Below, one piece after another: positions 659 to 19,256 of a stretch of DNA of 26,836 nucleotides; positions within the stretch are counted from its first letter, which is position 1, and each line of letters starts with the position of its first letter. The notes under the pieces were generated by a model. The model did not search any database and was not told where the DNA came from. It worked only from the letters and a program-made list of their open reading frames with translations. The translations under genes were made by a program, and so were the position numbers. This DNA comes from an uncultured Micrococcales bacterium (GTDB taxonomy: Bacteria; Actinomycetota; Actinomycetes; Actinomycetales; Microbacteriaceae), in contig CAIJJH010000097.1 in NCBI GenBank assembly GCA_903820955.1, forward strand, positions 1-26,836. Reading direction: 5' to 3'.

Positions 659-2404
659 TTAGCGTTCGAATTTAATACTGAGCGCCAAAGTGTTAGCGCC
701 CTTCACCGTCGTGATGATCAAGGTTACCGACGTCGGGGTAATGCCGGCCTTGTTTAAAGCAGTTTGAATTCCCGCATATCTTGACCGGAGCAATGAGGAG
801 GCGTTTTTCGATGTCATATTTGCAGGTCTCTGCATTTTGACGGTTAGAACCGCATTTTGGCCATCCATCGCAGAGTCGGCAAGAGCCTTCACGGCCTTTG
901 CAGCAAGCGAGTTCAGTGTTGATTTTCCGGCGGCAAAGACGACGTTTGCCGTCTTGGTATACAAGCCTCGGCGGTAGACATTCAACTGGTATGTCTTGTT
1001 AATAGCGCCGATGTGAACTGCAAGCGGAACGAGATTAAGTCCAACTGCTAGCGGCGTTAAGTTGGACGGATTCACAGTAGCACTCGCCGAATAGGCCCGG
1101 CCGGTGAGTGTGATTGCGTTAGTTGCATTTGGAACGGTCAGAGTGTCCTTCACCCCAAACTGGCCGTAGCCTATGGCAGAGAAGGTATTCAATGTCGCAT
1201 CGTAAGAGCTGATCATTCCTAGACCGTTTGAAATCTGGCTAGTTATAAAATTTCGCGATGCTGATTGATCGCCAGGGATTTCACCCGCGCCAAACTCTTT
1301 TCGAGGGTCGGCAATTAGAGACGGGTTTATTACCGCTGCAATGTTGCGGTTCATCTGGGGAAGGTTCAGTTCGGATGCCGAGTGAACAACCTTGACCAGT
1401 GCCTGGTGATAGAGGTTGAGGCACTGAGTGTCGGCGAGGCATTGGCTGAACAGTGCCGCGCCGTTGTTGTAGTCGAGTCCGCCGTTCCAGGTTTGATCCA
1501 TTCCCCAAGGAAGCATGATGAACTTGCCGTCTTGGCGAGAAACCAGATAGAAGTTGTTGTGATTGTTTACGTAGCCGTCCCAGTGGCCGGTAAATTTTTC
1601 GCTCGCCCAGTCGAGAGTCATTTCTTCTAGGTCGGCCACGGCAGACATTCTCGAGAACCAGTTTGGCCCGTTTCCCTGGTCGACAACGTGAGTTAGTGCA
1701 AGGAGATCAGAGGTGTCTGTTAGCGAACCCTGATCGATAGCGTAGAGGCCAATCTGGCTGCTGTAGAGATCAGGGAAGTACGGAACGCCACCTTTGTAAA
1801 TGTGGGTCGGGGTAATGCCCCAGTACGCCATTAGCTTGGTGTCCAGGGTTTCAAGGTTTAGGTATAATCCATAGTTTTGACCGTTGACGCTAACGTTTGC
1901 ATAGCCCGTTCGCGCGGTCGGAACGCCGACCGACCTGAAGAGTCTGTAAGACATGCTTTCGTGAACCGAGCTGTGATCTTGAACCATGTTGTTGAGAGTC
2001 AGCTTTGTGACTCCATAGAGCGAAGCGTTCTTGTTCTTGAAGTCGATCTTGATCTTAAAGCCAGCTTTGCCGTAAATGTTTCGCCAAGAACCCCATGCGC
2101 CTTTTAGGTGAACTCCGACATCCATCGACGCGAAGGGCACACCGTTCACCACACCCGAGAGCGTTGCTGGGAGGTATGGACCTTCGTTCCCCCAGTAGTT
2201 GGTTGAGCCGTTTAGGCCATCGATCGTGCTCTGAGGCATTTGCAGGTCTAGTTGGTTTACGACCAGCGGGTTGTAGAGAGCCGCGGCTTCGTCTGTACCC
2301 TCGACGTATTGGGTGTCTATTGTTGCGGCAGCCTGGCTCGGAATAGTCACGAACATCAGGGCGATACCAGCGGCAGCGCTAATGAGCCGTTTAAAAAGAA
2401 CCAT
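659..2404 (-). CDS. Secreted CotH kinase-like protein
   Basis: The 581-residue protein begins with a signal peptide (basic start, hydrophobic stretch to about residue 25, SQAAA cleavage region). The body matches the CotH family: LHLKGA-like strand (VHLKGAWGSW), KIKIDFKNK, LTLNNMVQDHS followed by the YRLFR helix, NYGLYLNLE, and later HWDGYVNNHNNFYL with LPWGMDQTW. The Asp of MDQTW (D303) corresponds to a metal-binding Asp of this atypical protein-kinase fold. CotH of Bacillus phosphorylates spore-coat proteins; relatives also occur as secreted proteins in non-sporulating bacteria, where targets are mostly unknown. Residues from about 430 to the end form a separate beta-rich tail I do not recognise. 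There is no Shine-Dalgarno sequence; a -10-like element lies six bases before the ATG. The SDR gene follows two bases downstream. Confidence 0.85.
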   Translation of the reverse strand: MVLFKRLISAAAGIALMFVTIPSQAAATIDTQYVEGTDEAAALYNPLVVNQLDLQMPQSTIDGLNGSTNYWGNEGPYLPATLSGVVNGVPFASMDVGVHLKGAWGSWRNIYGKAGFKIKIDFKNKNASLYGVTKLTLNNMVQDHSSVHESMSYRLFRSVGVPTARTGYANVSVNGQNYGLYLNLETLDTKLMAYWGITPTHIYKGGVPYFPDLYSSQIGLYAIDQGSLTDTSDLLALTHVVDQGNGPNWFSRMSAVADLEEMTLDWASEKFTGHWDGYVNNHNNFYLVSRQDGKFIMLPWGMDQTWNGGLDYNNGAALFSQCLADTQCLNLYHQALVKVVHSASELNLPQMNRNIAAVINPSLIADPRKEFGAGEIPGDQSASRNFITSQISNGLGMISSYDATLNTFSAIGYGQFGVKDTLTVPNATNAITLTGRAYSASATVNPSNLTPLAVGLNLVPLAVHIGAINKTYQLNVYRRGLYTKTANVVFAAGKSTLNSLAAKAVKALADSAMDGQNAVLTVKMQRPANMTSKNASSLLRSRYAGIQTALNKAGITPTSVTLIITTVKGANTLALSIKFER

Positions 2405-12057: not shown

Positions 12058-12068
12058 CATCGTAAAAT
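12040..12068 (+). promoter_or_regulatory. Sigma-70-type promoter for the 1319-residue protein gene
   Basis: TTGAAC (12040-12045), a 17-base spacer and TAAAAT (12063-12068) form a near-consensus promoter, partly inside the end of the DUF1801 gene. The spacer contains a perfect small inverted repeat AACGC-TG-GCGTT (12043-12054), a possible operator. A ribosome-binding site AGGGGA (12090-12095) lies four bases before the ATG at 12100. Confidence 0.65.
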
Positions 12069-12099
12069 GAAGGCTTAGAAACCACGCTCAGGGGAATAG

Positions 12100-15000
12100 A
12101 TGTTTAGAAGACTGGCAACGGCGCTAGCGGTGTTTTCACTCGCGATGGCTCCAGCATTGCTATCCCTGGGCAACCAAGAGGTTGCTTACTCGGTGCAACT
12201 TGAACCTGGTTGCGCGGTCACAGAAACCCAAGAAATACTTTGCACCAGGACATTTACCTACGCAGCAAATAGTTCCGGAGCGACTTGGACGATTCCAGCT
12301 CAGGTAACCAAAGTGTTGCTAGAGCAGTGGGGCGGCGCTGGTGGATCCGGCGGGCTTGACTGTGGAACCGGGTGTACCGCTCACGGGGGCAGCGAGGTTG
12401 GTCACCTCAGTTATCAATTGACGGTTACCCCCGGAGACACCATCGCTGTGTACCCTGGCCAAGGCGGAGGCAATGGTGCAAGCACTGCCTCGGGTTCAGG
12501 CGGTGGCTCTGCCGGCAGAAGTTCTTACTCCTCTTCGTATAACGGAGGTAGGGGTGGTAACGCCGGATCGGTTGGCACCTCGGGTGCCGGCGGCGGTGGA
12601 GGAGCCGCGACTGTTGTTAGCTACGGTCAATCATTCTTCATTGCGGCTGGTGCCGGTGGCGGCGGCGGTGCAGGAAACTACTCTGCCTCCGGCCGAGATG
12701 GCTCTGGTGAAAACATTCCGGCTGCCACGAGCGTTGGTGACAATGGAGGCGTGCCTGATTGCGTCGATATTTGCGACGGCGGTGGCGGCGGTGGCGGCGG
12801 TGGCGGTGCCACGGGAGGTGCAGGTGGCAATGTTTACGTTCTTCCAAGCCAGCTCGAAGTAGCTGGGCTTGGCGGCACTGTAGGTTCGAATTTTGTGGCA
12901 GCTCTTGCCACCAGGGTCATAAATAACGTGGTCTCACCTTCAAATGCGTCGAAGGTGCAGATTTCGTACTTTGCATCACCGGTTGCGACTATTTCATCTA
13001 CAAAGACCGTTTCAACCGACCCGAACATGAACTTTAGTGTCGAGTTCAGCACCAAAATTGACGACGCGAGTTTTACAGCTGACGATCTTTCGGTAACGGG
13101 TTCAGCTTCTCCATCGATAAATTGGGACATCTCTATAACCACCAGGCCAACGCATGGGCCTTGGACCTACGACGTTCGGGTGATCCCAAAAAGCGGCATC
13201 GAGCCAAGCGATGGAACAGTGGTATTGAATGTCGACACATCCAGAATTTTTGGTTTTGAAGGAACTCGGGGTAGCGCAGATGCAGCAGCCGGGACGATTG
13301 TCTTAGAGCGTTATTTGCCGACAGTCAAAATCACGCCGGATTCATCCTCGACTGGAACTGACGCGACTTTTAATCTTGTTTTCAGCGAACCGGTAACGGA
13401 TGTTTACGCGACTGGATTCAACGCCGCGGTCGGCTGTCAAATTTTAGAGGTAACTGGTTCCGGAACCGATTATCGAGTTTCTTTAAGTTGCATCGAAGGG
13501 TCTTCACCCTCGGTGAGTCTCATCGGTTCAACAGCTAAGGACTTTGCCGGAAACTTTGTCCCAGCGTCTCAATCCTCCGCATTGGATTTCACCCCGCCAA
13601 CTGGAAACTTCGTTTTAAATCAGCAAGCCAAGGACAGCACCTCACACGTTTTTTCAGTCATTTTCTCGGAACCCATTAAGGGGCTCACCGTTGGCGATTT
13701 CATTTTGCTAGCCGGAACAGCTAAGAATTGCAAGGTTGCTAGCGTAACTGGCACGCTGGAAACCTACACCGTCAAAATATCCGGTTGCACCGGAGGAACC
13801 TTTGGTTTGACCCTCAAATCCGACTCTGTGACCGACCGTGCTCGTAACGCCGGCCCAACCTCACCGATCACAAGCGGTATTCAAAACCTTGCTGTGCCAG
13901 CTCCAGTTGCGAATGTTATTGCCGGAACAATTCCGGCGAGCATCATAGACACCCCACTGACCACCTATTTCGGCTCGCTAAGGTCAGAGACCGTGTCTGC
14001 GTTGGACACTGCAAACATAATCGGTGCGCCAAGTGGGCTTCCGGCTCTTCGAGTTATTGCTGATTTGTCTACAATTTCTCCAATCGACCAAGTCGCCCTA
14101 ACTTCATCGAAATCCCTAGTTGCAGGCACAGGCCTATCGGTGGATCTGGTACCACCGAGCGGGACAAACGCGAATCTGGATGTTATGGCCTTCATCCAGA
14201 TAGATGGTCAGTGGCAATATCTGGGAAGAACGTCAATCTCCAATGGCGATATTCAAACACCGGAAATTGCATTCTTGAATTCGGGATCATATGCGCTGAA
14301 ACTTAGCTTGGTAGATCACAACTTTGCGTCAACTATCGGTTACTCGAAATCGCTCAATAACGGCCAGTTCAACACTGTCACCGCTGCCTTAGTAAAGGCC
14401 GGAGTTGATCCCAGCCTGACGAACTCCAACCAAACCATTTCAATCGTTGTGACGGTAACGCCGAACCCAAATGTAGTAATCACCATTCCTCAGCCAGTTC
14501 CAACACCCACCCCAACGCCTTCTCCTGAGATTACAGGCGGAAACCTAGGTGTCAGTCTGCCAACTTTCACCCCGGGTGCTCCTGTTGCAAACCCTGGAAT
14601 TGGCGCTACCGGTGACGATAACGCGCCATCGAAACCCTTCAATCCCATGGCATCCCCCGAGGGCATTAAGGCCGTCGCAACCACGACTACCGCAGTCGTT
14701 GCCGTTGCCGCGTCGGTCGCGGCGGCAGGCGCCGCGGCGGCTGGAGCGGGTGCTGCAGCCGGAGCCTCGGCAGGAGCCGGTTCTTCCGCGGGGGCCGGGC
14801 GAGGGGGAACCTCACAACCAAACAGCGCCAACAATTCAAGCTCGGATCCTGGCTCTTTGGCAAACATTGACGCCAGCATCGACACGTTTGAAGCCATGCA
14901 TCAACATGCCGGTGACCGGGCTCGAATCTTTAGGCCTCGGTGGATGCGGTTCTTTGACCGTAAAACTCACAATGCGACCGTTTTCTTCGCTCGGCTCTCT

Positions 15001-16059
15001 CCAATTTTGGCCAAAGCGTTGAACGATGGAGCATACCTTCGCGCAATTTTTGGAATTTTTTGGACTCTGTCGCCGGCGGCGGGGATTTCTTTGGCGGTAA
15101 TGGCCCTGCTGGATTCAAATCACGACGGCTTGGTCCCGGCTTGGACATGGCTTCTCCTGATTTCGGTTCTTGGAGTATTCGATGCGCTAGCCGGGTTGCT
15201 TGCCTCACTAACTCTCGGGATCGGCCTGATTTCGATTTACGGTATTCACTCGGCGAACGACATTCGACTTTTGCTTGGTGTAATGGTTCTTTGCTTCGGC
15301 CCTGTAATCATCTCTCTGGGATTCAGAGCTGTCCGACGACAAGGGATAGTTTCGCTTTCGCTCTTCTGGGAGCGAGTCGTTGATTTCGCAGTCTTGACCT
15401 TTTTCTCTGGTTGGACCGCGGCGACAATGATCAGCACACTCCCGGCTCTAGCGGGCCGCACTTTGGTGGTTGCTAATCACTTGAGTGACATCGCTGTCGC
15501 GATTGCCAGTGCGATTGCCGCACGTATAGTTCTCGAAGAAGTCGCCTGCAAGTGGTTCCCGGCTAGGCTCAACGTGATCTCGCCGACCGAAGTGCCAGAC
15601 CCAAACCTATTTCAACGCAGTGCAGCGCTCTGTTTGCGCGTGGGGTTGTTTGTATTCGTCACTGCAGCAATTGTTGGCTCTAGCTGGCAGGTTTGGGTAG
15701 GCGCGATACTTTTCGCAATACCAACCTTGCTGGGCTGGTTTAGCGACAAGTTTCCCAATTCGCGTAGGTTGTGGGTTATTTTACCTAGTGGCGTGCCGGG
15801 GTTAGCTTTCACTTTGCTAATCGCTTCGGTCTCATCAGCGTTTATCGGCACCGTTCTAGGCAATACCCCCGACCGCGCCCAGTGGTCTTTTGCTCTACTG
15901 CCGATTCCAATGGTTTTGCTTTCTTTCATATCACTATTTGGTCGCCATGGTCGAAATGCTGAGGAGAAACCACTTAAGCGCGACAAGTTCAGGTTCATCT
16001 ATCGCTTCGGTGGACCGGTGATCTTGCTCGTAACGATGAAACTTGCTGGCTTTATTTAG
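12100..16059 (+). CDS. Giant envelope protein: Gly-rich and Ig-like exterior fused to a polytopic membrane domain
   Basis: The 1319-residue protein begins with a signal peptide (about 1-28). Residues from about 50 to 285 form a glycine-rich domain (VLLEQWGGAGGSGG, repeated GGxGG, a run of ten Gly at 227-236) with two Cys pairs. About 295-395, 405-497 and 498-595 look like three bacterial Ig-like domains; the second and third contain FSEPV and FSEPI followed by D-F or G-F, typical of this fold. A less clear beta-rich region follows, then a Pro/Thr linker near 797-812 (PVPTPTPTPSP), an Ala-rich stretch at about 858-904, a basic segment, and from about 968 to the end eight or nine hydrophobic helices. 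I do not recognise the membrane domain. The layout suggests a surface adhesin or sensor whose long exterior is tied to a membrane channel, carrier or anchor; function is inference only. The end overlaps the convergent kinase gene by eight bases. Confidence 0.7.
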   Translation: MFRRLATALAVFSLAMAPALLSLGNQEVAYSVQLEPGCAVTETQEILCTRTFTYAANSSGATWTIPAQVTKVLLEQWGGAGGSGGLDCGTGCTAHGGSEVGHLSYQLTVTPGDTIAVYPGQGGGNGASTASGSGGGSAGRSSYSSSYNGGRGGNAGSVGTSGAGGGGGAATVVSYGQSFFIAAGAGGGGGAGNYSASGRDGSGENIPAATSVGDNGGVPDCVDICDGGGGGGGGGGATGGAGGNVYVLPSQLEVAGLGGTVGSNFVAALATRVINNVVSPSNASKVQISYFASPVATISSTKTVSTDPNMNFSVEFSTKIDDASFTADDLSVTGSASPSINWDISITTRPTHGPWTYDVRVIPKSGIEPSDGTVVLNVDTSRIFGFEGTRGSADAAAGTIVLERYLPTVKITPDSSSTGTDATFNLVFSEPVTDVYATGFNAAVGCQILEVTGSGTDYRVSLSCIEGSSPSVSLIGSTAKDFAGNFVPASQSSALDFTPPTGNFVLNQQAKDSTSHVFSVIFSEPIKGLTVGDFILLAGTAKNCKVASVTGTLETYTVKISGCTGGTFGLTLKSDSVTDRARNAGPTSPITSGIQNLAVPAPVANVIAGTIPASIIDTPLTTYFGSLRSETVSALDTANIIGAPSGLPALRVIADLSTISPIDQVALTSSKSLVAGTGLSVDLVPPSGTNANLDVMAFIQIDGQWQYLGRTSISNGDIQTPEIAFLNSGSYALKLSLVDHNFASTIGYSKSLNNGQFNTVTAALVKAGVDPSLTNSNQTISIVVTVTPNPNVVITIPQPVPTPTPTPSPEITGGNLGVSLPTFTPGAPVANPGIGATGDDNAPSKPFNPMASPEGIKAVATTTTAVVAVAASVAAAGAAAAGAGAAAGASAGAGSSAGAGRGGTSQPNSANNSSSDPGSLANIDASIDTFEAMHQHAGDRARIFRPRWMRFFDRKTHNATVFFARLSPILAKALNDGAYLRAIFGIFWTLSPAAGISLAVMALLDSNHDGLVPAWTWLLLISVLGVFDALAGLLASLTLGIGLISIYGIHSANDIRLLLGVMVLCFGPVIISLGFRAVRRQGIVSLSLFWERVVDFAVLTFFSGWTAATMISTLPALAGRTLVVANHLSDIAVAIASAIAARIVLEEVACKWFPARLNVISPTEVPDPNLFQRSAALCLRVGLFVFVTAAIVGSSWQVWVGAILFAIPTLLGWFSDKFPNSRRLWVILPSGVPGLAFTLLIASVSSAFIGTVLGNTPDRAQWSFALLPIPMVLLSFISLFGRHGRNAEEKPLKRDKFRFIYRFGGPVILLVTMKLAGFI
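12778..12807 (+). repeat. In-frame 9-base tandem repeat encoding polyglycine
   Basis: GGCGGTGGC occurs three times in a row (12778-12804) and is followed by GGT, encoding Gly227-Gly236 of the 1319-residue protein. Slippage in units of nine would change the glycine-run length without breaking the frame. Confidence 0.85.
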
Positions 16060-17386
16060 CGGGTAGTTGCAGTCGAATCGAGAGCCCACCCAGTTTGGAT
16101 TTGGAGAGTTCGACACTTCCGCCGAGAGATTCGGCGATTGCACCCATAATGCTCATTCCTAAGCCTGTGCCACCAGCTTGCTTTGATCTTGATGAATCAA
16201 ACCGTTTGAAACTGCGAATTCCTTTTTCGTAGGCGCCGTCTGGTAACCCTGAGCCGCCATCCTCGATGGCTAACAAGATTTTTCCACCGCTCTTTTTCAG
16301 GCTGACCTCAACCTTCGCGCTAACTGGCACGTAGCGATGGATGTTTGAAGTCACGTTGTTAAGAAACTTGGCAACCAGGTCTGGGTCAGTTCTGATGGCC
16401 ACTTTTGCAAGTGTCAATTTAATTGAACGTTTTGAATTGAGAATTAGTAAATCATCGAAGGCTTCCCGAACCAACGTGTCGATTTCGATCCACTGCAGCT
16501 GAGCTGCTCCAACTTCGCCGAGCCTCGCCAATAATAGAAGGTCACCAACCAGAACGCTCATCTTGTCGACTTCGCGGACGATTTTTTCGCTGGCGCTCTT
16601 TCGAAGAGCCGCGTCACCTTGAGTCAACAGTTCGCTGTAGCCTCGAATCACGGTTAGCGGGGTTCTGAGTTCATGGGAGGCGTCGGCTACGAAACTTTCC
16701 ATCGAGAGTTTGCTTCGCTTCTCGACTTCGAGCGCGTCGCTAAGCCTTTCAACCATCTTTCTGAGGGAGCGCGCGAGGCCCGCGATTTCAGAATTGCCTA
16801 TTTTGTTGGGGATACTCGAGCTCAGGTCTCCGTCGGCAATTCGCAGAGCAGCAGAGTTAATGATCTTTATGGACCGCAGGTCACGTCTTAGTGTCAACCA
16901 GACCAGGGCAACCATGAGTGCGAGAGTGGCCAGATATATGGCCACTAGTCCTTGGATGTTTTTGCCAAGATTTGTGTTTGCGCTCGCAAATGATGTCTCA
17001 AAAACCAGGTAGCCTCCTTGTTCTAGTTTCAAGGTCGAAATGAGTCGATCACCTTGCTCGATCGCTTTGCCTTGGGAGGCAAGTAATGCTGCTGCCGCCG
17101 GGGATTCGGTAATCTTTGGGCCGTCACTCGCAATAACGCTTAGTCTCCGTTGGGCATCAATGAAGGCAATCGAAACCGGCACCTGACTGCTTTGGGCCGA
17201 TATTAGGGCGTCGTCTAGCGCGTCCAAGTTGGTTGGATCAACCATAGCGACATCGCTCTTGAGAGACTTAGAGATTACGGTTCTTTCACCTTGGTAACCG
17301 AGGACGATGGATGCCGAACCTAGGGTTGCGGCCCCTAGAGTGGCCACAAGCGCTGTCGCCAAATAAACCTTGGTGGTTAACTTCAT
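16052..17386 (-). CDS. Membrane sensor histidine kinase
   Basis: The 444-residue protein has a first membrane helix at about 7-30, an extracytoplasmic sensor of about 115 residues, a second helix at about 147-167, then a HAMP-like linker. The dimerisation and phosphoacceptor box is ASHELRTPL with His238; the ATP-binding domain shows the N box (NNVTSNI), G1 (EDGGSGLP) and G2 (GGTGLGMSIM). It should autophosphorylate on His238 and pass the phosphate to the adjacent OmpR-type regulator, whose stop shares a base with this start (TGATG). The sensor domain is not one I recognise. Orthology to MtrB, PrrB or another named kinase cannot be settled by eye. The 3' end overlaps the gene of the large envelope protein. 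Confidence 0.92.
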   Translation of the reverse strand: MKLTTKVYLATALVATLGAATLGSASIVLGYQGERTVISKSLKSDVAMVDPTNLDALDDALISAQSSQVPVSIAFIDAQRRLSVIASDGPKITESPAAAALLASQGKAIEQGDRLISTLKLEQGGYLVFETSFASANTNLGKNIQGLVAIYLATLALMVALVWLTLRRDLRSIKIINSAALRIADGDLSSSIPNKIGNSEIAGLARSLRKMVERLSDALEVEKRSKLSMESFVADASHELRTPLTVIRGYSELLTQGDAALRKSASEKIVREVDKMSVLVGDLLLLARLGEVGAAQLQWIEIDTLVREAFDDLLILNSKRSIKLTLAKVAIRTDPDLVAKFLNNVTSNIHRYVPVSAKVEVSLKKSGGKILLAIEDGGSGLPDGAYEKGIRSFKRFDSSRSKQAGGTGLGMSIMGAIAESLGGSVELSKSKLGGLSIRLQLPAK

Positions 17387-18060
17387 CAGTTATCGGAGAT
17401 GGTGAAGCCCTCACCGCGGATTGTCTTGATTCCGTTCCAATCGGCGGTGTGCAGTTTGCGTCTGAGATAAGAAATATAGGTGTCGACGACGGTAGCGCCG
17501 GTGGCGAAGCCCATTCCCCAAATGTTTTCCAGCAGGTCTCGTTTTCTGACCAACTTGCCCTTGCGCTCCATTAGCTCGACGAGTAGGCGGTATTCGGTGC
17601 GGGTGAGTTGGACGCGCTCGTCGTTTACCTCGACCGCGCGTTCATCGTCGATAACTCGGATTGGACCACACTCGAGTATTTTGCCTGCCGAGAGAAGTCC
17701 GCTTCTGCGCAAAACAGCGTTGACGCGCAGGATCAGTTCTTGCAAGACAAAGGGTTTTGGCAGGTAGTCGTCGGCGCCGGTTGTGAAGGCCTCGGCGAGG
17801 TCTTTCTTTTCGGATCTCGCGGTCAACACGATTGCGGGAATGTCGTTGCCAGATGACCGAAGCCGCTCGAGCAGTTCGAAGCCGTCTAGTTTTGGCATGT
17901 TCACATCGGTGATAAGGAGGTCTGGGAGTCGGTCACGGAGGATTGCTAGTGCCGAGAATCCATCACCAGCAATTATTGTCTGGTGTCCGGCTAATGCCAG
18001 CGCATCACTGACCATCTCAGCTACGCCAGGTTCGTCATCGACTACAAGAATTAGGGCCAT
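17386..18060 (-). CDS. OmpR-family response regulator
   Basis: The 224-residue protein starts, by family alignment, at the ATG at 18060 (MALILVVDDEPGV); the frame is open to a GTG at 18108 but the extra 16 residues do not fit a receiver domain. The receiver has the acidic pair in VVDDE, phosphoacceptor Asp52 in LLITDVNMPKLDG, the Thr of VLTAR and the Lys of YLPKPF. The C-terminal winged helix is typical of OmpR/PhoB proteins (ERVQLTRTEYRLLVELMERKGKLVRKRDLLENIWG, ending with VDTYISYLRRKL and TIRGEGF). It regulates transcription when phosphorylated by the coupled kinase. No ribosome-binding site is visible, and a 20-base palindrome lies 13 bases before the ATG. Direct repeats suited to this class lie farther upstream. 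Confidence 0.92.
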   Translation of the reverse strand: MALILVVDDEPGVAEMVSDALALAGHQTIIAGDGFSALAILRDRLPDLLITDVNMPKLDGFELLERLRSSGNDIPAIVLTARSEKKDLAEAFTTGADDYLPKPFVLQELILRVNAVLRRSGLLSAGKILECGPIRVIDDERAVEVNDERVQLTRTEYRLLVELMERKGKLVRKRDLLENIWGMGFATGATVVDTYISYLRRKLHTADWNGIKTIRGEGFTISDN

Positions 18061-18072
18061 GGCTTTAGCCAA

Positions 18073-18092
18073 CCAGAGTGCGCGCGCTCTGG
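18073..18092. repeat. 20-base palindrome upstream of the response regulator
   Basis: CCAGAG and CTCTGG flank a GC alternation; the whole 20-base stretch is self-complementary except for one T/G pair (18079 with 18086). It lies 13-32 bases before the chosen start at 18060. It could be a protein-binding operator or an RNA hairpin in the regulator messenger. Confidence 0.7.
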
Positions 18093-18118
18093 CAAACTCC
18101 ACAGACACCTCTAGTGAG

Positions 18119-18153
18119 TTTCACAAACTTTTCACAAAGGGTTTGCTGTGAAA
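18119..18153. promoter_or_regulatory. TTTCACAAA boxes, probable binding site of the adjacent OmpR-type regulator
   Basis: TTTCACAAA occurs at 18119-18127 and again at 18130-18138, a period of exactly 11 bases, and an inverted TTTCACA lies at 18147-18153 (TGTGAAA on the plus strand). OmpR/PhoB-class dimers bind head-to-tail repeats spaced about 10-11 bases. The boxes sit between the divergent regulator and coiled-coil protein genes. Confidence 0.6.
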
Positions 18154-18159
18154 TAGAGA
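18131..18159 (+). promoter_or_regulatory. Candidate promoter of the Ala/Lys-rich protein gene
   Basis: TTCACA (18131-18136), a 17-base spacer and TAGAGA (18154-18159) give a weak sigma-70-like promoter. Its -35 is part of the second TTTCACAAA box, so regulation there would be direct. GGAAGG (18180-18185) is the ribosome-binding site, five bases before the ATG at 18191. Confidence 0.4.
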
Positions 18160-18190
18160 CAAGCGAAAACTCGCTCCTCGGAAGGCAGAA

Positions 18191-18745
18191 ATGAACAAAC
18201 TAACCAAAACGACGATTGCTGCAGCATTCAGCGTTTCGCTGATTATCGGCACTGGTGCATTTGCAACCGGTCACGAAAACCGCGTTCCTTGCCCAACCGT
18301 TTCTTCCACGGCAACGAATTCGGCAGCCGACTACGCAAACCTGAGCAACGCTTACGGCAATTACGTAAATGACACTAACTCGACCTACAACTCTTCGGTA
18401 TCAGAGGCTAACGTGGCAGCCGAAGCAGCAATTGCTGCTCAAAAGGCCGTCGTAAAGGCAGCTAAGGATGCCCTAAAGGTTGCCCATGACAAGGTAGTCG
18501 CCGCAAAGGAAGCCCTAAAGGTTGATCCAACTTCGGTTGAAAAGAAGGCAGCGCTTGACGCAGCCAAATTAGAGGCCAAAGCAGCTAAGGCAGTTGTTGC
18601 AGCTCAGCGAGTTCTCTTGAAGGCTCAACGCGATGCTAATGAGGCAGCGCGCAAGGCTATTCGCACGGCTACCCAGGACAGAACTCAAGCCCTAAAGTCT
18701 TGCCACGCACCGAAACCTCCTAAGGCAAAGGGCAAGAGAGACTAA
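18191..18745 (+). CDS. Exported Ala/Lys-rich coiled-coil protein, unknown family
   Basis: The 184-residue protein has a signal peptide (MNKLTKTTIAAAFSVSLIIG, likely cleaved near residue 26 after GAFA). The mature part starts with a Cys at 34 and a Ser/Asn/Tyr-rich stretch, then from about 72 to 160 is a long helix of Ala, Lys and Glu (for example AAIAAQKAVVKAAKDALKV), expected to form a coiled coil. A second Cys lies near 170 and the tail is strongly basic (KPPKAKGKRD). There is no lipobox and no membrane anchor. A cell-wall- or polymer-binding role is possible but not shown. It is divergent from the two-component system, with that regulator's likely binding boxes in its promoter, so it is a probable target. 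Confidence 0.75.
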   Translation: MNKLTKTTIAAAFSVSLIIGTGAFATGHENRVPCPTVSSTATNSAADYANLSNAYGNYVNDTNSTYNSSVSEANVAAEAAIAAQKAVVKAAKDALKVAHDKVVAAKEALKVDPTSVEKKAALDAAKLEAKAAKAVVAAQRVLLKAQRDANEAARKAIRTATQDRTQALKSCHAPKPPKAKGKRD

Positions 18746-18752
18746 AAGTTCT

Positions 18753-19256
18753 CTAGATAGTGCGAGCGGGGTTACCGATTACGGTGACCCCGTTTGCCAC
18801 GTCCTTGGTGACTACCGACCCAGCTCCAACAATCGAATCGTCATGCAAGGTGACATTGCCGATGACGATTGCTCCAGCGCCAATCACGACTCGGTTGCCG
18901 ACGGTTGGATGCCGTTTGCCCCTGGTAGCACTCTTAGCACCTAAAGTCACCCCGTGATAGAGAAGGACGTCGTCGCCAACCACCGCGGTTTCGCCGATCA
19001 CGATGCCCATTCCGTGATCGATTACTAGTCTCCGGCCAATCTTGGCGGCCGGGTGAATCTCGATTCCTGTGGCGATGCGGCCTGCGTATGCCCACATTCG
19101 GGCAAGAGTTTTGAGTCGAAGCGTCCAGAGGAGGTTTGCTTGGCGGTGGTTCCAGAGAGCGTGTAGCCCGGGTGAGGTAAGAATTACCTCTAATGCGTGA
19201 CGAGACGCTGGGTCTCTTTCAAGACCTGCTCTGATGTTTTCGCCGAAACGGATGAT
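18753..19256 (-). CDS. cysE: Serine O-acetyltransferase with no canonical start codon
   Basis: Serine acetyltransferase makes O-acetylserine from serine and acetyl-CoA, the first step of cysteine synthesis. The left-handed beta-helix is clear: GIEIHPAAKIG, DHGMGIVIGETA, LYHGVTLG, KRHPTVGNRVVIGAGA and VVTKDVANGVTVIGNPA, with catalytic His in DHGMG. The only ATG (19097) would give 114 residues, but the frame upstream encodes the family's N-terminal helices (IRAGLERDPASRHALEV, SPGLHALWNHR) back to the cysK stop. That part contains no ATG, GTG, TTG or CTG. I place the start at an ATC (19254-19256) as the best fit to the family's N-terminus; this is uncertain. The gene follows cysK directly, and its 3' end lies seven bases from the convergent coiled-coil gene. 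Confidence 0.8.
   Translation of the reverse strand: MIRFGENIRAGLERDPASRHALEVILTSPGLHALWNHRQANLLWTLRLKTLARMWAYAGRIATGIEIHPAAKIGRRLVIDHGMGIVIGETAVVGDDVLLYHGVTLGAKSATRGKRHPTVGNRVVIGAGAIVIGNVTLHDDSIVGAGSVVTKDVANGVTVIGNPARTI
18768..18795 (+). terminator. Strong hairpin after the Ala/Lys-rich gene, inside the cysE 3' end
   Basis: GGGGTTACCG (18768-18777), an ATTA loop and CGGTGACCCC (18782-18791) form a ten-pair stem with one wobble, followed by GTTTG. It lies 23 bases after the stop of the plus-strand coiled-coil gene. The short T tract makes it an imperfect intrinsic terminator. It is also coding sequence of cysE. Confidence 0.45.

Follow-up and report, generated by a model that had tools for sequence, protein, structure and literature searches.

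Surface proteins anchored by sortase through an LPXTG motif follow a common plan: a signal peptide, immunoglobulin (Ig)-like repeats, a Pro-rich linker and a C-terminal motif followed by one membrane span and a charged tail. Very long surface proteins are described from Gram-positive bacteria, such as the 7651-residue adhesin of Mobiluncus mulieris, which has Ig-like domains (PMC10619420), and Giant1-5 of Apilactobacillus kunkeei, which take up roughly 6% of a genome of 1.5 Mb (PMC12863079). Rhodoluna lacicola belongs to the small planktonic actinobacteria described with streamlined genomes (PMC4156110) and is reportedly open to genome editing (PMC11577799).

The window analysed here, a stretch of 26,836 nucleotides, is one contig, C97, from a draft genome of 1.27 Mb that is 94% complete. 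A sequence-only reading had singled out four of its genes, encoding a giant surface and membrane protein (P0001), a histidine kinase, a response regulator and an exported protein (P0004), and had proposed that they might form one surface-sensing or surface-remodelling module. All four ORFs lie where that reading had placed them (Table 1). Our best reading of the sequences is that P0001 belongs to an undescribed actinobacterial family of surface proteins ending in a polytopic membrane domain, which would serve them as a dedicated anchor or platform in the membrane.

Table 1. Features of the four-gene region, in window positions
Feature	Position	Strand	Basis
P0001, surface/membrane protein, 1319 aa	12100..16059	+	ORF; homologues in relatives
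P0001 signal-peptide-like N-terminus, ~aa 1-31	12100..12192	+	sequence reading; hydropathy peak at residue 14
P0001 Gly-rich region, ~aa 75-245	12322..12834	+	read from sequence
P0001 Ig-like region, ~aa 397-595	13288..13884	+	Big_12 below cut-off
P0001 Pro linker and juxtamembrane motif PSKPFNPMASPEGIKAV, ~aa 795-860	14482..14679	+	read by eye
P0001 Ala-rich helix, ~aa 853-900	14656..14799	+	hydropathy; low-confidence helix in AlphaFold model
P0001 conserved C-terminal membrane domain, ~aa 930-1319	14887..16056	+	conservation and AlphaFold model
Histidine kinase	16052..17386	-	HisKA, HATPase_c, HAMP over Pfam cut-offs
OmpR/PhoB-type response regulator	17386..18108	-	Response_reg, Trans_reg_C over Pfam cut-offs
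Direct repeat TTCACAA-N4-TTCACAA	18120..18137	+	repeat comparison across loci and genome scan
Exported Ala/Lys-rich protein (P0004), 184 aa, signal-peptide-like start	18191..18745	+	ORF

The 1319-residue protein and its membrane domain

P0001 is composed of the parts first read from its sequence: behind an N-terminus that looks, by sequence and hydropathy, like a signal peptide come a Gly-rich region, an Ig-like region, a Pro linker, an Ala-rich stretch and a membrane part. Pfam matched nothing in the Gly-rich region; the glycine-rich domain ALK_LTK_GRD is present in one relative (L068) and in a cousin encoded by the same genome, a surface protein of 781 residues (L257, 9338-11680) that is 36% identical to P0001 over residues 424-592 (E 7.6e-21). 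The Big_12 match in the Ig-like region stays below the cut-off (18.8 bits vs 27, E 0.0019, best stretch 407-488), and the same domain is above it in the homologues L068 (120.9 bits, eight stretches) and L056. A motif resembling PSKPFNPMASPEGIKAV precedes the membrane part, by eye, both in fused relatives and in the split versions considered below. Throughout P0001 there is no LPXTG-like motif (LP.T[GANS]), and Pfam found no signalling domain. The conserved part of the protein is the C-terminal one, comprising the last ~400 residues.

An AlphaFold model of residues 845-1319 (pTM 0.75, mean pLDDT 75.8; not reliable over its first 83 residues) contains about ten membrane-length helices between residues 978 and 1316, rather than the eight or nine counted from the sequence, plus the Ala-rich helix, which is a possible first membrane span. 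From residue 1076 onward, Lys/Arg-rich loops, which fit the cytoplasmic side, alternate with Lys/Arg-poor ones; because of this alternation the C-terminus is predicted to lie outside. The side occupied by residues 885-977 depends on the Ala-rich helix, which may or may not cross the membrane. Among 41 representatives of the domain sharing less than 60% identity with each other, D1028, R1076 and G1193 do not vary, D976, D1095 and P1229 are conserved at 98%, and R1092 and R1142 at 95%, while no Cys or His is conserved at 70% or more. Membrane enzymes of the exosortase/archaeosortase type have conserved Cys, Arg and His, and an assignment to them was rejected on the missing Cys and His.

The domain is so far undescribed: no library or fold search used recognised it. 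The combination of parts had already looked unfamiliar in the sequence-only reading, and profile and structure comparison of the C-terminal domain gave no family match over a cut-off and no convincing fold match. For the P0001 domain, Pfam returned no match at E 1 in set A1 and nothing better than E 0.98 in set A4; when 30 of the 41 A4 members were scanned one by one at E 0.05, three matches came up, every one below its cut-off. TauE/SafE (PF01925) matches two of the 41 members at E 1, but membership was rejected, the better of the two (L198) scoring 23.4 bits where the cut-off is 32.6 and the other being absent from the matches of those 30 members at E 0.05. NCBIfam gave no match for the window's own member, the best E value of any single member among the 41 being 0.016. 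With PDB sequences, A1 produced mostly Ala-rich low-complexity or weak matches (best E 0.00095) and A4 only E 0.44. No fold match stood out among those listed by Foldseek and VIA-align, which does not in itself prove a new fold, and profile comparison of the segments tried revealed no internal repeat. A phage origin was dismissed as well: a pattern scan of viral contigs confirmed no relative, and there were no viral fold matches at E 0.001. The best-ranked literature contained nothing recognisable on this domain or on Luna/acI giant proteins, and two Luna papers gave no relevant passage on giant or surface proteins.

Fused and split forms of the domain

Matches to some part of P0001 occur in 50 of 60 genomes of the genus, many solely in the Ig-like region; among the matches listed, some extend into the membrane domain in at least 32 of these 60 genomes. 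Beyond the genus, matches were found in 8 of 150 genomes of the family (two of these weak and with stops), 10 of 296 in a sample of the class, 9 of 198 in a sample of another class, and 11 of 396 in a sample of the phylum (two marginal). Some genomes carry several copies. The domain closes the protein in all 44 ORFs of a first set, with tails of 0-27 residues and one member (L064) terminating at a contig end. It is also near the C-terminus in all 70 ORF rows of a later set, at most 11 residues from the end in 57 and at most 60 in all, six rows repeating another row's gene and one (L199) consisting of two halves in different frames.

The proteins that end in this way can be extremely long. The longest frame listed from Rhodoluna-type genomes has 12,006 codons and was read whole as two pieces (6532 + 5474 codons); most of the genomes are drafts, in which frames and contig ends may mislead. 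Another frame, of 7968 codons, sits in a single-contig genome. These bacteria are considered streamlined, yet one relative devotes 36 kb of its 1.4 Mb to the 12,006-codon frame. Of three giants scanned with Pfam, L068 and L056 (the latter belonging to a different genus within the family) both have Big_12 and a C-type lectin domain, L068 has a Gly-rich domain as well, and the third gave no match within its first 4000 residues. In the domain tree, P0001 is a long branch whose placement is weakly supported (82/27), and the domains of the relatives G033 (7153-codon frame) and G008 (8162-codon frame) belong to a different clade. Three short copies from one distant genome (L182, L183; 435-499 residues) show neither an obvious surface part nor an obvious signal peptide.

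In family f98, which includes several small complete genomes and might correspond to the acI group, 15 of 101 genomes have the domain (one of them, G1008, as a partial match). Here a separate gene encodes it in most cases, and the product has a short outer part and begins like a signal peptide. We read 21 stand-alone ORFs, leaving out the partial match, and the upstream DNA was readable for 16. Eleven of these 16 are directly behind a repeat-protein gene on the same strand, of secreted type (signal-peptide-like) where the start is visible. The complete partners measure 2014, 3452, 3319, 2105, 3632, 668 and 405 residues, and four others are cut by contig ends; eight of the 11 have LKPGQ[KR][IV] as their last residues, and the two scanned with Pfam hold Flg_new, fn3 and Gly-rich domains. 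Ten of the 11 gene pairs overlap by 1-8 bp (eight by 4 bp) and one pair is 2 bp apart, an arrangement in which the split gene is probably translationally coupled to the repeat-protein gene. As fused and split forms both exist, the classical fusion argument suggests that the two parts work together.

The other five copies lack a preceding repeat protein: one is preceded by a second copy of the domain, one shows neither arrangement, and three sit in a different operon, behind a gene for at most 258 residues and before a DnaJ-like gene. This operon (L251 13709-17873, L252 and L226) joins a protein of ~250 residues, the membrane-domain gene and a DnaJ-type gene, and is opened in L251 and L252 by a small secreted protein. 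In L251, the ~250-residue protein is peptidase-S26-like, just below the cut-off, and the DnaJ gene has collagen repeats.

Several other genes occur around giants. Near three of them stand genes that look alike by eye (L068 11399-12820, L044 8012-9409, L076 4138-5601); the one in L068 encodes a 474-residue sigma-70-like factor whose C-terminus has a long additional part, and it is followed by a large secreted protein. The giant genes of G049 and G005 (L179, L212) are seemingly right behind ribosomal genes (rplJ/rplL, by eye). A convergent CotH gene abuts the genes of ~1250-residue relatives in six of seven loci, the seventh contig ending inside the gene, and a second CotH is nearby in five of the seven. 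The locus common to L063 (5842-16703), L058-L062 and L064 comprises DUF4956, CotH, the giant gene, SDR, a phosphodiester glycosidase (NAGPA), the second CotH and a cadherin-like repeat protein, with a 286-residue membrane gene in several of L058-L064; the Pfam names come from L063 alone. In the genome of the window, one CotH gene lies in the window (659-2404) and there are two more; the contig G000:C57 (L256) carries the CotH1 orthologue, and behind it a lipoprotein-like gene where relatives carry the giant gene. CotH was rejected as a general partner, and the association looks like local synteny, because the other 33 loci have none at E 1e-10 and this genome has the lipoprotein-like gene at that place.

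The kinase, the regulator and the exported protein

The four domains expected of an OmpR/PhoB pair (HisKA, HATPase_c, Response_reg and Trans_reg_C) are all above cut-off. An identity with MtrAB was rejected, the scores being 142.8 of 450 bits for MtrB and 151.5 of 300 for MtrA (NCBIfam equivalog cut-offs). The true start of the regulator is probably the inner ATG at 18060, which suits the family better than the start at 18108. In 14 of 30 kinase loci, that of the window among them, a small Ala-rich ORF points away from the regulator gene; these ORFs have a signal-peptide-like start, and two are truncated by the end of the stretch. The remaining 16 loci comprise ten with a kinase of ~490-510 residues and other neighbours, five with a 412-residue kinase and one that is cut. 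P0004, for which no Pfam family scored over its cut-off, is recognised by sequence in just 4 of 60 genomes; the partners elsewhere are therefore alike in kind and not proven homologues. The 412-residue kinase (L045 49-1997, L178, L153-L158) has a visible regulator in five of the six loci L153-L158 and has an APH-type kinase gene (one scanned) behind it, to which L178 adds a mannosyltransferase-like gene; some contigs with this kinase also carry giant genes.

A 7-base direct repeat with 11-bp spacing and at most one mismatch lies between the regulator and its divergent neighbour in 9 of 13 loci and is absent in four, compared with a mean of 2.0 loci and a maximum of 6 in 300 dinucleotide shuffles of the same stretches. 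If TCACA is required in both halves, a core picked after seeing the sequences of these related loci, 8 of 13 have it, vs a shuffle mean of 0.003 and never more than one. The exact repeat occurs once in the 1.27 Mb genome, before P0004, and its reversed control 0 times; with up to two mismatches allowed, there is one box match in the window, no better than chance, and none near 12100. It is probably the regulator's box, which would make the exported protein its likely target. The sequence-only reading had seen the regulator diverge from the exported protein with regulator-type boxes in the latter's promoter, and on this point the comparison agrees with it.

The comparison of neighbourhoods bears on P0001 itself, whose gene does converge with that of the kinase and overlap it, as had been reported; the overlap is 8 bp. 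The closest relative, G033, keeps the order of the window: hutG-hutU-hutI-hutH-DUF1761-DUF1801, kinase-regulator, exported protein, cysE-cysK-mmsA-hisN-rsgA-aroA-sigR. Identities are mostly 97-99%, with 95% for the regulator and sigR and 89% for the kinase and the exported protein. The 1319-residue gene is missing there, the last sense codons of DUF1801 and the kinase being ~13 bp apart, and it is missing too in the more distant G008, where the ends of these two genes overlap; in a third relative, G039, the contig stops at this site. Thus, both relatives that can be checked on both sides lack the P0001 gene and keep the other three. Conversely, 39 of 40 loci with a domain gene (3-19 kb each) contain no homologue of the window's kinase or regulator at E 1e-10. 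The fortieth, L045, has a different kinase-regulator pair 5.5 kb from the domain gene; similar pairs occur ~11 kb or more from giants on the larger contigs G049:C20 and G031:C12, and L060, L062 and L063 have an unrelated receiver-type protein (by eye). Judged by gene order, the trio of kinase, regulator and exported protein forms a conserved unit that is separate from P0001 and merely adjacent to it. What remains of the module first proposed is the link between regulator and exported protein; the membership of P0001 falls with the empty site.

Just beyond P0004, the cysE-like ORF of the window (18753-19097) has only 114 residues, which correspond to the hexapeptide part. In the window, G033 and G008 the helical N-terminal part of serine O-acetyltransferase is seemingly missing; L176 shows an N-terminal part.

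Explanations of the domain and comparison with known systems

We put at about 55% the probability that the membrane domain anchors giant surface proteins, either fused to them or as a separate partner, and that the trio is merely a neighbour. The signal peptide would initiate export of the chain, and the Gly-rich, Ig-like and other repeats would be exposed outside the cell; the C-terminal domain, synthesised last, would remain in the cytoplasmic membrane and retain the chain there, standing in for the single span in which ordinary surface proteins, such as the cousin in the same genome, end. Rhodoluna-type genomes would have the domain fused to the surface protein, and family f98 as the separate partner of a secreted repeat protein. 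We infer export, anchoring and binding between split partners from sequence. A domain made last is unlikely to be the export channel for its own chain, and holding that chain is thus its simplest role. Against anchoring count the short copies L182 and L183, the five of 16 f98 copies without a repeat partner, and the weak placement of P0001 in the tree.

Ten or more helices, together with D1028, R1076, D1095, R1092 and R1142 conserved at 95-100%, suggest some activity beyond anchoring. The domain could then be an active device, such as an enzyme, a transporter or a modification or attachment machine acting on a surface protein or polymer, with anchoring secondary. The near-invariant charges within many helices, the short copies without obvious surface part, the f98 operon with its signal-peptidase-S26-like gene (below cut-off) and DnaJ-collagen gene, and the contact of one member with the TauE transporter family would all suit such a device; however, with nothing above a Pfam cut-off, nothing notable in NCBIfam or PDB sequences, no conserved Cys or His, and most of the copies read being tied to surface proteins, we consider it unlikely. 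A receptor that informs the cytoplasm of force or binding at the outer repeats is more doubtful still: a big outer part is linked to a conserved polytopic domain, many of whose conserved charges are on the Lys/Arg-rich, presumably cytoplasmic, side, but P0001 has no signalling domain in the Pfam scan and no conserved regulator stands immediately beside its gene. As for the four genes forming one surface-sensing module, their adjacency in the window, the convergent overlap of kinase and giant, and the different kinase-regulator pairs on giant-bearing contigs (L045, G049:C20, G031:C12) speak in its favour. The module is rejected because G033 and G008 lack the giant gene at this site and keep the other three, and the single exact box, before the exported protein and with no counterpart near 12100, also argues against it; we find it barely credible.

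Anchoring as the preferred role can be extended, tentatively and with odds clearly below even, to a so far undescribed polytopic machine, shared by aquatic Actinomycetota, that does more than hold its chain: fused or coupled to chains as long as 12,000 residues, it would position them, put them under tension or release them. If true, this would mean a dedicated apparatus for ~12,000-residue chains in genomes thought to be streamlined. A domain common to giants across families and classes, and sometimes split off, offers a handle on how giants stay at the surface, and as a gene family it is amenable to deletion tests.

The trio resembles OmpR/PhoB systems with a divergent target in its HisKA/HATPase_c kinase, its Response_reg/Trans_reg_C regulator and its 11-bp direct repeat, and differs from them in an Ala/Lys-rich target for which no Pfam family scored over its cut-off. 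P0001 resembles the Gram-positive giants of M. mulieris and A. kunkeei in being one of a family of very long surface proteins, and that of M. mulieris in its Ig-like domains; it differs in the conserved polytopic domain that closes its type of chain, a comparison that leaves the anchoring of those giants aside. With LPXTG/sortase proteins it shares a signal-peptide-like start, Ig-like repeats, a Pro linker and a C-terminal membrane part, but it is without the motif and has about ten helices in place of one span and a charged tail. The 781-residue cousin from the same genome also starts like a signal peptide and is Gly-rich, and its Big_12 repeats resemble the Ig-like region of P0001; it ends in one ordinary span, LGFAALALAFLLGGGWLYRRMR, whereas P0001 ends in the polytopic domain.
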